Source: Arenicellaceae bacterium
GTDB taxonomy: Bacteria > Pseudomonadota > Gammaproteobacteria > Arenicellales > Arenicellaceae
Reading direction: 5' to 3'
Assembly (NCBI GenBank): GCA_029246505.1
Contig: JAQWNC010000015.1
Coordinates: 62,001 to 126,000 of the forward strand
Length of the DNA stretch: 64,000 nucleotides
Shown: in pieces, positions 48,664-57,622 of the stretch
How the letters are laid out: each line of letters starts with the position of its first letter
How positions within the stretch are numbered: position 1 is the stretch's first letter
Translations under genes and position numbers: made by a program
The notes under the pieces: model-generated
Told to the model about the DNA's origin: nothing
Seen by the model: only the letters and a program-made list of their open reading frames with translations
Databases searched by the model: none

Positions 48664-51357
48664 CTAATCCGCGATAACACTACCGAGCCAACGCTCAACC
48701 TTTTCCTTCGGCATATTCTTACGCCTTGCATAATCTTCAATTTGATCGTCCTGTAATCTGGTCACTGCAAAATACCGACTGTCCGGATGAGAAAAATACC
48801 AACCACTGACCGCCGCAGTCGGCAGCATCGCAAAACTCTCAGTAATCGTGATACCCGCATTTTGATCTGGCTGTAGAAGCTTCCATAAGGTAGCTTTTTC
48901 AGTATGGTCTGGGCAGGCCGGATAACCTGGCGCAGGCCTAATACCTATATAACGCTCCTTAATAATATCTTCATTTTGCAATTCTTCTTCGACAGCGTAA
49001 GCCCAATATTCCTTACGTACTTTCTCGTGCAAAAGTTCGGCGAACGCCTCAGCTAATCGATCAGCCAGAGCCTTTAACATTATCGACTGATAGTCATCGT
49101 GGTTAGCCTCAAATTCTGCCAACTTCGACTCAATATCTCCACCAGTTGCGCAGGCAAAGGCGCCAATATAATCTAACTTACCGGCCTCTTTAGGCGCAAT
49201 ATAGTCTGACAAACAATAATTAAACTGATTTCCTTTTTTCTGGTCTTGCTGGCGTAAATGATGAAGCATTGTAAGCGTTTCGTTACGGCTATCATCGCTG
49301 TAAAGTTCAATATCATCATCGATACTATTGGCAGGATAAAATCCGATCACTGCGTTAGCCGTTAACCATTTCTCATCAATAATTTTGTCGAGCATATGCA
49401 TAGCATCTACATGTAATTTTCGTGCCTCTTCACCAACGACCGCATCATTAAGAATGCGCGGGTACTTCCCCGCAAGCTCCCAGGCTATAAAAAATGGCGT
49501 CCAATCGATAAGGTCCCGTAGCTCTTCCAGTGGATAGTCCTCAAAAACCTGAAGGCCCAATTTTTTAGGTTTGGGGGGTTGGTAGTTTTCCCAATCAATA
49601 TCTAGCTTATTATCACGCGCTGCAACAAGCGAAATAGATTTTCTTACGTTTGCAGTACTGGCACGGCGTTGCCGCACGTGCTCGTATTCATCCCGAATAG
49701 CAGCAACGTAAGCGCCCTTAGTGTCGGGTATCAGTAATTTCTGTGCTACGCCTACTGCCCGCGATGCGTCGGTAACATGAATAACCTGGTCATTCTGATA
49801 ATTAGGCTCTATCTTAAGGGCAGTGTGTAGCCGAGAGGTGGTCGCACCCCCGATCATCAATGGAAGTTTAAATTTCTGACGCTGCATTTCCTTTGCCACG
49901 TGTACCATTTCATCAAGTGAGGGAGTTATAAGCCCCGAAAGGCCAATAATATCGCATTCCTTTTCTTTCGCAGTTATCAAAATCTTTTCTGCCGACACCA
50001 TCACGCCAAGATCAATAACCTCAAAGTTATTACACTGCAAAACGACACTGACAATATTCTTGCCTATATCATGCACATCACCTTTTACCGTGGCCATAAG
50101 AATTTTACCGTTAGACCGTTTTTCTCCATCTTGTTTGTCACCCTCAATAAAAGGCAACAGCCATGCAACAGATTTTTTCATTACTCGTGCGGACTTGACC
50201 ACTTGAGGTAGAAACATTTTGCCAGCGCCAAATAAATCACCAACAACGTTCATACCGTCCATCAGTGGACCTTCGATCACCTGAATAGGACGATCAATGG
50301 TAAGCCTAGCCTGTTCAGTATCCTCTTCGATAAAATCGGCTATACCTTTTACTAAAGAGTGAGAAAGCCGTTTTTCCACTGCCCAACTACGCCATTCCAA
50401 GTCTCTGGTCTTATCAACCTTCACGCCATCGCTTCGATAATCACCTGCTATTGCTAACAGCTCCTCGGTAGCGCCCGAATGGGTATTGAGAATAACCGCC
50501 TCAACTTTTGCACGAAGCTCTTCTGGTAAGTCATCATATACCGCAAGCTGACCGGCATTTACAATACCCATATCCATGCCCGCCTGAATAGCGTAGTACA
50601 AAAATACAGAATGGATTGCCTCGCGCAGCGTGTCATTACCACGAAACGAAAAGCTTACATTAGATACACCGCCGGAAACCTTGACGTATGGAAGCCGTTG
50701 CTTTATTTCACGCGTAGCCTCAATAAAATCAACAGCATAATTATTATGCTCATCAATTCCTGTCGCGACGGCAAAGATATTGGGATCAAAAATTATATCT
50801 TCGGGAGCAAACCCTACGCGCTCTACAAGTATCTTATACGCTCGTTCACAAATCTCGACCTTACGTTCCTTGGTGTCCGCTTGACCCACTTCGTCAAATG
50901 CCATCACAACAACAGCTGCACCATAACGCATGATCAGTTTAGCTTGCTTAATGAAAGGCTCTTCACCCTCCTTAAGCGAAATAGAATTTACGATACCCTT
51001 GCCTTGTAAGCATTTAAGCCCCGCCTCAATCACCTCCCACTTAGAAGAATCCACCATCACTGGTACTCTAGCGATATCAGGCTCAGCTGCCATTAAATTT
51101 AAAAAAGTCACCATCACTGCTTTTGAGTCGATTAGGCCTTCGTCCATATTAACGTCAATAATTTGCGCGCCACTCTCAACCTGATCACGCGCCACCTCCA
51201 GAGCGGCGTCGTAATCACCTTCCTTGATTAACCTTCTGAATTTTGCAGACCCGGTAATGTTGGTACGTTCGCCCACATTAACGAACAGACTCTGGTCTCC
51301 AATCCGAAATGGCTCCAAACCTGAGAGTCTCATCTCTTTTACAATGGTCTTACTCAT
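48664..51357 (-). CDS. metH: Cobalamin-dependent methionine synthase, C-terminal part (folate, B12 and activation domains)
   Basis: The 897 residues carry the pterin-binding domain ([11 protein letters not shown] at the start, ASCN-type [15 protein letters not shown]), a cap/B12-binding module with [10 protein letters not shown] (the histidine that ligates cobalt) and GLSGLITPS, and the SAM-dependent reactivation domain ([23 protein letters not shown]). Only the homocysteine-binding domain is missing, and it is encoded by the upstream gene, overlapping by 4 bp (ATGA). Together the two total 1244 residues, close to one-piece MetH (1227 in E. coli). Confidence 0.96.
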
Positions 51358-52397
51358 TTAAGCCCTTCAACCAAAAGCACCTCGCGCGGTGGGATATTTG
51401 CTACTGCATTTGCGATCGCTTCAATATGACCAGGGGTAGATCCACAGCAGCCACCCACAATATTCACAAAACCACTACTTGCCCATTCCTTGATATTTTC
51501 AGCCATTTCATCGGGAGTCATGTCGTACTCGCCTATTTCATTTGGCATACCCGCATTAGGGTGTGCAGAAACAGCGGTTCTTGAAATTCTTGATAACTCT
51601 TGAACGTATTGGCGCAAATCTTCAGGTCCGAGGGCACAATTTAAACCAATACTTAGAGGGTTTGCATGCTGCAAACTATTATAAAAGGCCTCTGTTACTT
51701 GCCCACTTAACGTTCTGCCACTCTGATCGGTAATTGTGCCAGAAATCATGATGGGTAGTTCTACATCGCGATCATCGAAATACTGCTTGGTAGCAAATAC
51801 TGCCGCTTTCGCGTTTAGTGTATCGAAAACTGTTTCTATTAAAATAATATCAGCACCTCCGTCGATCAAACCCCGGAGTGCAACGCCATAATCCTCAACC
51901 AATTGGTCAAAAGTAGTAGCCCTCGCGCCTGGATCATTAACATCTACCGACACGGATGCAGTTTTTTGATTCGGCCCCAATACGCCGGCAACGAACCGGG
52001 GGTTTTTTTGTGTACTAAAGTCATCGGCGGCCACTCTGGCTAACTTGGCGGCCTCTTGGTTTATCTCATAGGCAAATTCGGATAACTCATAACGTCCCAA
52101 ATCACTGGGCGTAGAATTAAAACTATTGGTTTCTATTATGTCAGCACCGGCTTCGAGATAGTCCTGATGAATACCTAAGATGATCTCGGGCTGTGTAAGT
52201 ACCAGCAAATCATTCATGCCTCTTAACAATATATGCCAATCTTTGAAACGATCACCACGATAGTCTTGTTCTTCGAGTTTTTTGTTTTGGATCATGGTCC
52301 CCACTGCACCGTCGAGCACGAGGATTTTGCGGGCTAATGCAGCTCGTAATAGCGCAGTACGATTTATTCTACTAACCTTTTCCTCTGTTGCAGACAA
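51354..52397 (-). CDS. metH: Methionine synthase, homocysteine-binding domain as a separate protein
   Basis: The 347 residues form the N-terminal homocysteine S-methyltransferase barrel of Met[12 protein letters not shown] at the start, [10 protein letters not shown], a first zinc cysteine in [10 protein letters not shown], and the zinc pair GGCCGSTP at the C-terminal end of the barrel. It ends where the folate domain gene begins, with ATGA overlap, so this is a split MetH. It follows metF after 11 bp in the ahcY-metF-metH operon. Confidence 0.95.
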
Positions 52398-52408
52398 GTA
52401 AACAGCCT

Positions 52409-53302
52409 CTAAGCCAGCTCGAGACGTTTACAAATTTCAATCGTTGGGTTTGCTTTATTAAGAGTGTAAAAATGAATTCCTGGCGCGCCGCCCTCCAGCA
52501 AACAATCACACAATGTCGTAATCACCTCAGCGCCAAAATCCTTCAATGCGTCCGCATCATGCTGATATTGCTGAAGGCGGCTTCGTAGCCAGCGAGGAAT
52601 TTCAGCACCGCAAATATCTGAAAAGCGAGCAAGTTGAACAAAATTTGTAATCGGCATTATACCCGGCACGATTGGCACTTTTATATTTGCCTGGATGGCA
52701 CTATCGACAAGCGCGAAATATGCATCTGCATTGAAGAAATACTGCGTAATCGCCGAATGTGCACCGGCTTCAACTTTACGTTTAAAATTCAGCAGGTCCG
52801 TCACGGGATCTGCGGATTCGGGATGATATTCCGGATAAGCTGCAACCTCGATCAAAAACTGATCGCCAGTCTCAGCTCGAATAAATGTTACTAACTCATT
52901 TGCATACGCAAAATCGCCTAATTCGACCATACCCGATGGCCGGTCACCACGCAATGCCACCAAGCGCTTGACTCCGATATCACTGTATTTTCTGAGCAGC
53001 TCACGAATACTATCCTTGGAAGCACCGATACAAGATATGTGTGGCGCAGCATCGCCCCCCGAGTTAATAATGCTTTTAACCGCGTCAAATGTTCCTTCAC
53101 GCGTACCACCTCCCGCACCAAATGTCACCGAATAGAAAGAAGGTGCTAAAGCATCCAGTTCACCACGCACCTTATTTAGGTTTGTAACTCCCCGCTCTGT
53201 TTTTGGCGGGAAAAACTCAAAGCTTATTTCGGGCTTATTTGTCAACTCACGACTCGTATGTGGGGATATACCAACCAAAAAATGACTGCAAGGGGTCGCC
53301 AT
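52409..53302 (-). CDS. metF: 5,10-methylenetetrahydrofolate reductase
   Basis: Produces 5-methyl-THF, the methyl donor for MetH. The 297-residue flavoprotein shows [30 protein letters not shown] and the [10 protein letters not shown] loop. Its start is 24 bp downstream of the ahcY stop, and metH follows immediately, so one transcript encodes SAH hydrolysis, methyl-folate formation and homocysteine remethylation. The N-terminus before ISFEFF is about ten residues longer than usual; a later start is possible. Confidence 0.95.
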
Positions 53303-53326: not shown

Positions 53327-54748
53327 TTAATATCTATAAGGCTCAGGCTTATATGGGCCCCCTACTTTAACGTTAATGTAGTCTGCTTGCTCCTGCGTGA
53401 GTACAGTCAACTTTGCACCGATTTTCTCCAAGTGAAGTCTGGCAACTTTCTCATCGAGAAGCTTTGGTAAAACATAGACGTCATTATCATATTTGCCAGG
53501 ATTATTAAAAATTTCCATTTGCGCTAATGTCTGATTAGTAAATGAATTAGACATTACAAAACTTGGATGGCCCGTACCACAACCTAGATTCACTAAGCGG
53601 CCTTGGGCAAGTAAAATAATGCGCTTGCCATCCGGAAAAATCACATGGTCAACCTGATCTTTAATAGTCTCCCATTCGCAGTGCTCTAAGCCAGCCACAT
53701 CAATTTCATTGTCAAAATGGCCAATATTACAAACGATTGCCTGATTCTTCATTTTCGCCATATGATCATGAGTAATAATGTTGAAATTACCCGTGGTAGT
53801 CACGAATATATCTGCTTCACTGACAACGTCATCCATTGTCACCACCTGGAAACCTTCCATCGCGGCCTGAAGGGCACATATAGGATCAATCTCGGTAATT
53901 TTTACAATAGCTCCCAGACTGGCTAATGACTGGGCTGAACCCTTACCAACATCACCATAACCTGCAACAACAGCCACTTTGCCCGCTATCATTACGTCGG
54001 TAGCACGCTTTATTGCATCAACCAAAGATTCCCGGCAACCGTACAAATTATCGAACTTCGACTTAGTAACTGAATCATTAACGTTGATTGCAGGGAACGG
54101 CAATTCTCCACGGTCGCGCATTTGGTATAACCGAGCCACGCCAGTAGTAGTTTCTTCAGTAACTCCCTTAATCCCGGACAAACGTTTTGAATACCAACTA
54201 CCGTCTTTCTCAAGCTGAGCTTTAATCGCCGCATAAAGATATGTTTCTTCTTCACTTTCAGGGTTATCAAGCACGCTAGGGTCTTTTTCTGCCTTACTTC
54301 CAAGAATAAGCAGCAATGTAGCGTCTCCACCATCGTCAAGAATCATATTTGGACCAGTGTCCCCCGCCCAGTCAAAGATGCGATGTGAGTAATCCCAGTA
54401 CTCCTCTAGCGATTCGCCTTTATAGGCAAATACCGGAATGCCTTGAGCAGCGATTGCTGCCGCAGCATGGTCTTGGGTAGAAAAAATATTACAGGATGCC
54501 CAGCGAATTTTAGCACCCAAAGCCGCCAAAGTTTCAATCAATACGGCGGTTTGAATCGTCATATGCAAAGAGCCTGTGATCTTTGCTCCTTTTAACGGCT
54601 GCTGGCTACGGAATTCTTCACGTGTAGCAATTAGGCCAGGCATTTCAGTTTCGGCAATAGCAATTTCCTTCCGGCCAAAACCAGCAAGATCAATATTCGC
54701 TACGTGATAATCAGTAAAATCAGAAGAGGGCGCTAGATTTACGCTCAT
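53327..54748 (-). CDS. ahcY: S-adenosylhomocysteine hydrolase
   Basis: Cleaves SAH to adenosine and homocysteine, relieving inhibition of methyltransferases. The 473-residue bacterial long form has [13 protein letters not shown], the NAD site [24 protein letters not shown], and the C-terminal YKPEPYRY that completes the partner subunit's cofactor site. First gene of ahcY-metF-metH. A GGAG site lies 8-11 nt upstream of the ATG within a potential hairpin, below a SAH riboswitch. Confidence 0.97.
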
Positions 54749-54772
54749 TTTTCAGCTCCAGTCGATGAAAAA
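54748..54772 (-). promoter_or_regulatory. Hairpin presenting or sequestering the ahcY ribosome-binding site (candidate expression platform)
   Basis: On the minus strand TTTTTCA (54772-54766) can pair with TGAAAAA (54754-54748), placing GGAG (54759-54756) in an 11-nt loop and the first base of the ATG at the stem base. It is one nucleotide from the riboswitch pseudoknot strand, so ligand-dependent folding could affect it sterically. Confidence 0.5.
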
Positions 54773-54773
54773 C

Positions 54774-54900
54774 GAGCACCGTTCGAGTCCGCAATATTAC
54801 GCGGGCGAAATTTCGTTACTTGAGCCTGAGACCCTCTACTATTGGTATTACTTTTAAAAGTAACTAAATAATAGCGTGAATCTTGCAGCGCTCCTCAAGT
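54774..54900 (-). promoter_or_regulatory. S-adenosylhomocysteine (SAH) riboswitch upstream of ahcY
   Basis: The 5' core GAGGAGCGCTGCAAG, the middle CAGGCTCAAGT and the 3' AACGGTGCTC match the SAH aptamer consensus (GAGGAGCGCUGCAA ... CCAGGCUC ... AACGGCGCUC). P1 is a perfect 7-bp ACTTGAG/CTCAAGT (54900-54894 with 54824-54818). The pseudoknot pairs GAGCGCT with GGTGCTC (54780-54774), using G-U pairs. The P2 arm is long and includes ACTTTTAAAAGT; an extra stem CCGC/GCGG lies between P1 and the pseudoknot strand. A TATAAT (54920-54915) sits 14 nt before P1. SAH binding should raise expression. Confidence 0.93.
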
Positions 54901-54914
54901 CGTTGTCGGGCGGG

Positions 54915-56108: not shown

Positions 56109-57281
56109 CTAGGATGCATGCGCAGCGTCACGCAATGCTTCAGCTTTGTCAGTTCGCTCCCAGGTAAACTCAGATTCGGTTCGGCCAAAATGCCCATAAG
56201 CCGCACTCTTTCGATAAATTGGTCGTAACAAATCAAGCGTTTGAATAATTGCTTTTGGTCGTAAGTCGAAATGAGCATCGATCAATGCTTCAATTTTTTC
56301 TTCCGCAATAGTGCCTGTTCCAAAGGTATTAACCATTAAACTCACCGGGTCAGCTACACCAATGGCGTAGGCTACCTGTACCTCACAGCGATCTGCTAAG
56401 CCAGCCGCAACAATATTCTTTGCAACATAACGACTGGCATACGCTGCAGAGCGATCCACCTTGGATGGGTCTTTACCTGAAAAAGCGCCGCCACCGTGGT
56501 GTGCCGCGCCGCCGTAAGTATCGACAATAATTTTTCTACCGGTTAAACCACAATCGCCAACCGGACCTCCAATAACAAAACGACCGGTAGGATTAACCAA
56601 ATAGCGGGTATCTTTAGTAACCAAATTAGTCGGTATTATTGGTTTAATGACCTCTTCGATGATAGCTTCTTGCAGATTTTTATGAGAAATATCATCATCA
56701 TGCTGCGTTGAGAGAACAACGGTATCTACTGAAACCGGCTTTCCATCCAAATAGCGCATCGTTACCTGAGACTTTGCATCGGGTCGTAGCCAGGTCAATG
56801 AACCCGATTTCCGAACATCTGCCTGTTGTTTAACCAGGCGATGCGAAAAAGTTATAGGTGCCGGCATTAATACATCCGTTTCGGTACACGCATAACCAAA
56901 CATTAATCCCTGATCACCCGCACCTTGCTCAAGATCTAACCCTTCACCTTCGTTAACACCTTGAGCTATATCGGCAGATTGTTTATCAAGCGCAACAATA
57001 ACTGCACAACTCGCATGGTCAAATCCCATTTCGGACGAGTCATAGCCAATTTCTTTGATCGTTTCACGGACGGCCTCAGTTACACCGTCCAAGCGCCCTT
57101 TGGTAGTAATCTCTCCAGATAGCACGACCATGCCGGTATTAACCATCGTTTCACAAGCTACTCGTGACCCCGAGTCCTGCTCTAACAATAAATCAAGAAC
57201 AGTATCGGAAATTTGATCGGCAACTTTATCGGGATGACCTTCTGAAACGGATTCAGAGGTAAAAAGGTAACTTCTACTCAT
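56109..57281 (-). CDS. metK: S-adenosylmethionine synthetase
   Basis: Makes SAM from methionine and ATP. From ATG 57281 the protein ([19 protein letters not shown]) is 390 residues; a further in-frame ATG at 57353 would add 24 non-conserved residues and lacks a ribosome site, whereas GAGG lies 7 nt before 57281. Active-site motifs GHPDK, GAGDQG and [16 protein letters not shown] are intact. With ahcY, metF and metH nearby it completes the methyl cycle. A SAH-riboswitch-like element lies in its leader. Confidence 0.96.
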
Positions 57282-57370
57282 GGGATTCCTCAAGCCGGTA
57301 CTGGCGTATATATTTGCTAGAACAGGAGTTCTCGTAGACTCATTTCCCGACATAAGCTAATGTTAAAAAA

Positions 57371-57440
57371 TGAGCGCTGTTGTATTTATATGCCCGAGCC
57401 TGGAAGGTTCTTGACAGAGACTTTCGCAACGCCCGTCAGG
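57371..57440 (-). promoter_or_regulatory. SAH-riboswitch-like element in the metK leader (candidate)
   Basis: In order on the minus strand: CCTGA (57440-57436), CGGGCGTTGCGA, a variable P2, CCAGGCTCGGG, a 10-nt linker, and AACAGCGCTCA. Compared with the SAH consensus, CCAGGCTCG and AACxGCGCTCA are retained. P1 forms as CCTGA/TCGGG (one G-U), and the pseudoknot as GGGCGTT/AGCGCTC (57434-57428 with 57378-57372, two G-U). The top of P1 has a C-C mismatch and P2 is weak. It starts 12 nt after a TATAAT, the same geometry as at ahcY. Confidence 0.62.
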
Positions 57441-57452
57441 ATAAGTGCGCGG

Positions 57453-57458
57453 ATTATA
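57453..57458 (-). promoter_or_regulatory. -10 element of the metK promoter
   Basis: Consensus TATAAT on the minus strand, 12 nt before the first stem of the riboswitch-like element. No strong -35 is visible. The transcript would have a 5' leader of about 165 nt. Confidence 0.7.
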
Positions 57459-57622
57459 TAGACCAACACGCGTCCTTTCCAGTTCTTGTTATGAATCTAT
57501 GAGAAAATACTGTTTACGGAAATTATCATTCTGTCGATCAGTTCGGCATACTCACTAACAAGTAAGTATCCTGACAATATAAAAGTATTAGTACTGAAGC
57601 TCTCCAACCACTGCATGATTTA

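Follow-up and report, generated by a model that had tools for sequence, protein, structure and literature searches.

SAH is a product inhibitor of methyltransferases and a by-product whose precursor is SAM. The targets ascribed to the SAH riboswitch (RF01057) in surveys are ahcY, metF and metH, and SAH riboswitches are stated not to control metK (Leyn et al. 2014, PMC4239095); a literature search, with the class's primary papers (Wang 2008, Edwards 2010) outside its scope, returned no report of metK under RF01057. The SAM-SAH riboswitch (RF01727) of the Rhodobacterales directly precedes metK and has a pseudoknot as the core of its structure (PMC2864571, PMC7367207), the SAM-Chlorobi motif (RF01724), described in Chlorobi, occurs in the leaders of operons with metK and ahcY (PMC2864571), and the SAH-responsive ArsR-family protein SahR controls regulons in which metK, ahcY, metH and metF stand under one regulator (PMC4239095). 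The metK leader described here lies in a window (the whole stretch of DNA that was analysed) of 64,000 nucleotides, and its element resembles the SAM-SAH riboswitch in position and in the presence of a pseudoknot but differs from it in core motif and structure, RF01727 giving no match on 57250-57500 up to E = 10. The regulatory idea is that of the SahR regulon, which however employs a protein and a DNA operator where the window has an RNA aptamer, while the SAM-Chlorobi motif likewise sits in a leader but belongs to another RNA family and has no match in that of the window. With the SAH riboswitch RF01057 the element shares its sequence, its P1/P2/pseudoknot architecture and the ligand contacts that were checked, and the same genome also has an ahcY element; the differences are the target, metK, and the loss of the top P1 pair. 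The element and its helices are as follows:

57365..57441, minus strand: SAH riboswitch aptamer upstream of metK (RF01057, model R2, covariation in 53 metK-linked elements)
57440-57436 with 57397-57393, minus strand: P1 of the metK aptamer, five pairs, none flagged as non-standard in the RF01057 alignment
57434-57429 with 57377-57372, minus strand: pseudoknot of the metK aptamer, GGGCGU with GCGCUC
57423-57421 with 57406-57404, minus strand: P2 of the metK aptamer, weak (RF01057 alignment)

The presence of an SAH-aptamer core in the metK leader, which the sequence-only reading had proposed, was borne out by a match of RF01057 at 57441-57365 (minus strand) that extends over the full length of the model (positions 1-78 of 78) and scores 41.7 bits against a curated gathering score of 37, with E = 2.5e-4 for 64 kb searched against all 4227 Rfam families. 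Both stretches of the core motif that had been read from the letters, CCAGGCTCG and AACAGCGCTCA, are present. RF01057 aside, no Rfam family matched 57250-57500 up to E = 10, the SAM and SAM-SAH models that had been suggested for comparison included. Across the whole 2.64-Mb genome RF01057 has two matches, of which the metK-leader element is the best (E = 2.4e-6). A covariance model, R2, for which 50 metK-linked elements from other families were used and that of the window was excluded, also ranked the element first among its matches in 88 kb (E about 5e-8, 40.2 bits); a further model, R1, contained the window, and its match is not independent for that reason. A chance match was rejected on the strength of the RF01057 E-values for the 64 kb and the genome and of the recovery of the element by the independent model R2. 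As judged from its sequence, the metK leader carries a true representative of the SAH riboswitch class, albeit one that has diverged somewhat, and we infer that SAH is its ligand.

The pseudoknot consists of four Watson-Crick and two G-U pairs, and the expectation that its 5′ strand departs from consensus in ways that preserve pairing through G-U holds, as GGGCGT pairs with GCGCTC by way of two such pairs; the same A-U to G-U change at the first G-U site is seen in 7 of 53 aligned rows, and a U-G at the last position in 16 of 53. P1 forms as anticipated as far as its five pairs are concerned, but a further pair at its top is C.C in the window (C57435 with C57398), the sole row among 53 without G-C (52 of the 52 other metK-linked rows have it), and because the RF01057 model does not include this pair it marks divergence rather than exclusion from the class. 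P2 comprises three pairs followed by two mismatches flagged in the RF01057 alignment, where the UGC, CCAGG and AAC motifs and the joining regions are intact. We take G15, C16, A29 and C46 of the crystallised construct to correspond to these three motifs, and with this residue-to-motif mapping the equivalents of all four are kept in the metK aptamer. The structural study of the SAH aptamer (PMC7057144) names these four nucleotides as contacting the ligand. The visible divergence of the metK copy lies in P1 and P2, and with a broken top P1 pair and a weak P2 the copy may bind poorly.

Across the 53 metK-linked elements 95.1% of the cells that make up P1, P2 and the pseudoknot are paired, and 14 of 19 pairs show changes on both sides; the pseudoknot, which covaries, is paired in 99.7% of cells. 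None of 500 shuffles reached any of five covariation measures, and slid structures dropped to 27-40% paired. Compensation of the kind that had been proposed as a check among relatives is thus found in P1, P2 and the pseudoknot of metK-linked homologues from other families, but within the order the metK-linked element was found, among 109 genomes, in the window's genus only, so that orthologous covariation is not available for the window copy. The covariation supports the SAH class on metK, and does not by itself support selection on the window copy.

The genes and elements on the minus strand are, in sequence:

57453..57481, minus strand: sigma-70-like promoter of the metK leader (TGGAAA, 17 nt, TATAAT; 10 of 12 matches in a pattern scan)
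56109..57281, minus strand: metK, methionine adenosyltransferase (TIGR01034, 601.5 bits against a cut-off of 309.4)
56027-55554, minus strand: MarR-type regulator, downstream of metK
55519-55034, minus strand: lipoprotein-like ORF, between the MarR-type regulator and the ahcY aptamer
54767..54902, minus strand: second SAH aptamer, upstream of ahcY (RF01057, 35.1 bits, below the gathering score of 37)
53327..54748, minus strand: ahcY, adenosylhomocysteinase (TIGR00936, 594.2 bits against 497.6)
52409-53302, minus strand: metF, after ahcY and followed by a two-piece metH

Promoter-like sites are no more numerous in the region than chance would give, but the one listed is located where a transcript starting just before the aptamer would need it. 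Its -10 hexamer, TATAAT at 57458-57453, is the one already noticed just before the aptamer and has TGGAAA 17 nt upstream of it, the distance from its end to the aptamer being 11 nt. The likely start of metK is ATG 57281, which is preceded by a GAGGA Shine-Dalgarno sequence at 57291-57287 and is the point (about residue 25) from which metK homologues mostly align. The open frame itself opens at ATG 57353, in frame and inside the competing hairpin described below; this start was rejected as it is without a Shine-Dalgarno sequence and homologues begin at the equivalent of 57281. The metH of the window (48664-52397) is split into a homocysteine-binding part of 347 aa with a TTG start and a remainder of 897 aa, the two overlapping at ATGA, and in the sister genome (L139) the two metH parts are likewise separate matches.

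The ahcY element, which had been noted 2.6 kb from that of metK, does exist at this distance, but its score of 35.1 bits is under the gathering score; its P2 carries a long insert, and in a genome of the same genus the ahcY element is above threshold with 39.7 bits. Both aptamers are followed by a hairpin that competes with the pseudoknot:

57338..57375, minus strand: competing (anti-pseudoknot) hairpin of the metK leader, which takes up the 3′ pseudoknot strand of the aptamer
54743..54777, minus strand: competing hairpin of the ahcY element, which encloses the Shine-Dalgarno sequence and start codon (ATG 54748) of ahcY

The metK-leader hairpin has a predicted stability of -13.4 kcal/mol (z = -3.55; 0 of 200 shuffles as stable), and that of ahcY -15.6 kcal/mol (z = -2.99; 1 of 200). 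A duplex test of the aptamer 3′ strand and tail against the downstream stretch gave p = 0.08 for the window alone and p ≤ 0.05 for 67 of 70 metK-linked leaders of other families, namely 29 of 29 in family f86, 30 of 30 in f14 and 8 of 11 in f149, the families being placed by similarity to named metK loci. In f86 the stem and loop of the hairpin hold metK's own Shine-Dalgarno sequence and AUG, and this arrangement, like that of ahcY in the window, is compatible with SAH binding setting the start site free. The metK start is well downstream of the hairpin in the window and in f14 and f149, with the window RBS about 46 nt past the hairpin. Direct release of the RBS by the hairpin was not borne out by folding of the platform on its own, which gave none for the window or, by this measure, for most other leaders. 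An intrinsic terminator as the output was rejected, none being present between the aptamer and metK. Some f14 leaders (L294-L323) contain four mutually complementary segments, corresponding to the aptamer strand, an anti-strand, an anti-Shine-Dalgarno and the Shine-Dalgarno sequence, a pattern which suggests a relay that would free the RBS on ligand binding. The anti-pseudoknot strand holds an ATG in most metK-linked leaders (window, f14/f149), in the window that of a short frame, MSLRELLF*, at 57343-57317 (minus strand), and this ATG may be a mere consequence of complementarity to CUCAUU.

Within the window's order 56 of 109 genomes contain an SAH element. In the first 41 of these order genomes (tblastn) the checked elements precede ahcY, save for the window metK copy and one weak hit, both core motifs were found in no other metK leader examined in the order, and the coordinates of SAH hits and metK revealed no further SAH element upstream of metK in the rest of it. 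The weak hit (L142 / L028, G005:C5:20020-20090) scores 30.1 bits with RF01057 and has none of metK, ahcY, metF and metH alongside. In a sample of the class, 156 of 369 genomes carry SAH elements, mostly between metK and ahcY, but at five of the loci that were fetched metK is the next gene. The element is directly upstream of metK at 68 of the 90 loci checked in f14, f86 and f149, a count on which uniqueness to the window genome was rejected for the class. It lies 83-124 nt before metK at 30 of 30 loci in f14 and 3-30 nt before it at 28 of 30 in f86, and is found on metK in some genera of f149 and on ahcY in others. Among named records, it is situated 91 nt (Piscirickettsiaceae MAG, L072) and 119 nt (Methylococcaceae bacterium UBA975, L087) before a metK-ahcY-metF run. 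As ahcY is probably co-transcribed in such runs, metK may be a passenger there; it is the evident target in f86 and in the window, which have separate elements for metK and ahcY, many f86 genomes having a second one about 1.2 kb on, before ahcY (SAH-metK-SAH-ahcY; L156, L157, L264-L293). Predicted SAH elements upstream of metK are thereby conserved in at least three gammaproteobacterial families. Three genomes of other families have SAH elements directly before metH (L158, L160, L162).

One other genome of the genus was compared (G001, a draft that is 88% complete and 4% contaminated), and it has the same neighbourhood. Its syntenic metK is cut to residues 361-411 (72.5% identity; L139:1944-2134, G001:C71), and directly before this remnant stands a 26-nt piece of the aptamer with 22 identical positions (L139:1944-1969), a likeness reached by 0 of 2000 shuffles; a marR gene was not found at the syntenic place. 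A second and different metK (71% identity) is encoded on a separate contig of G001 (L140, G001:C209), without an SAH element and beside a metF-like gene, and could be a replacement of the essential gene or a contaminant. The metK element likely already existed when the two species diverged and then degenerated in G001 along with the gene.

On the evidence above it is quite probable that the window element functions as an SAH riboswitch for metK. It could instead be a decaying relic, a former SAH riboswitch that has lost the integrity of P1 and P2 and with it any regulation, a reading favoured by the C.C at an otherwise invariant P1 top pair, by the weak P2, by a score of 41.7 bits that is low in the 37.7-66.1 range of metK-linked elements, and by the sister genome, in which metK and leader have both decayed. 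We consider such a relic unlikely, as the pseudoknot, the joining regions and those ligand contacts that were checked show no damage, pairing survives the changes in the pseudoknot, and the aptamer piece in G001 decayed together with its gene whereas the window has both, with metK intact. It is scarcely credible that the element has changed its ligand, for example to SAM, to suit metK. Gene context is what speaks for it, given that SAM-sensing riboswitches often precede metK (PMC2864571) and that the copy has diverged; the nucleotides named for SAH binding are kept, however, and the metK-linked elements elsewhere are ordinary SAH aptamers by score, reaching 66.1 bits. The earlier suggestion of an altered ligand in a divergent element is accordingly not upheld, the divergence being in P1 and P2.

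As to the sign of the response, the class is described as raising expression (stated for ahcY, PMC7057144), and we lean towards the same direction at metK. It is nevertheless conceivable, if very improbable, that once SAH is bound the U-rich tail AUUUUUUAA becomes available for pairing with the Shine-Dalgarno region UUGAGGAAU, whereby metK expression would go down. The window platform does fold in this manner when the pseudoknot strand is blocked, the mean unpaired probability of the RBS falling from 0.58 to 0.38, the opposite of activation, but the tail helix contains several G-U pairs and is one among many competing folds, and the other families show no consistent change in accessibility of this kind. 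Were it true, SAH would promote its own clearance by way of ahcY but lower SAM synthesis, and one aptamer class would have opposite outputs on two genes of one cycle.

The preferred reading is probably that of an ordinary SAH aptamer on an undocumented but recurrent target, which raises SAM synthesis when SAH accumulates. Under this proposal accumulating SAH would bind the metK aptamer and lock the pseudoknot, and the locked pseudoknot would withhold the aptamer 3′ strand, GCGCUC, from the downstream competing hairpin, with a consequent increase in metK expression; the hairpin would presumably exert its effect on the metK RBS some 46 nt further downstream. The ahcY element would respond in the same way, so that SAM synthesis and SAH clearance would be raised together, as a switch of SAM-cycle flux. 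The logic at metK, which had been expected to differ from that at the SAH-recycling genes, is less odd than was first suggested in view of the SahR regulons and of the recurrence of metK-linked elements in other gammaproteobacterial families.

What the comparative sequence data point to, then, is a riboswitch class already known but attached to a gene that the literature surveyed rules out as its target; the arrangement is conserved in several lineages, and the window copy has diverged. A published generalisation on the SAH riboswitch regulon is thereby corrected, with a predicted RNA sensor of SAH on SAM synthetase in several gammaproteobacterial lineages. The cleanest case is that of family f86, where separate elements stand on metK and ahcY in one genome and the hairpin lies over the metK start codon. 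The finding raises the question of whether SAH, besides promoting its own removal, also stimulates SAM synthesis by feed-forward.
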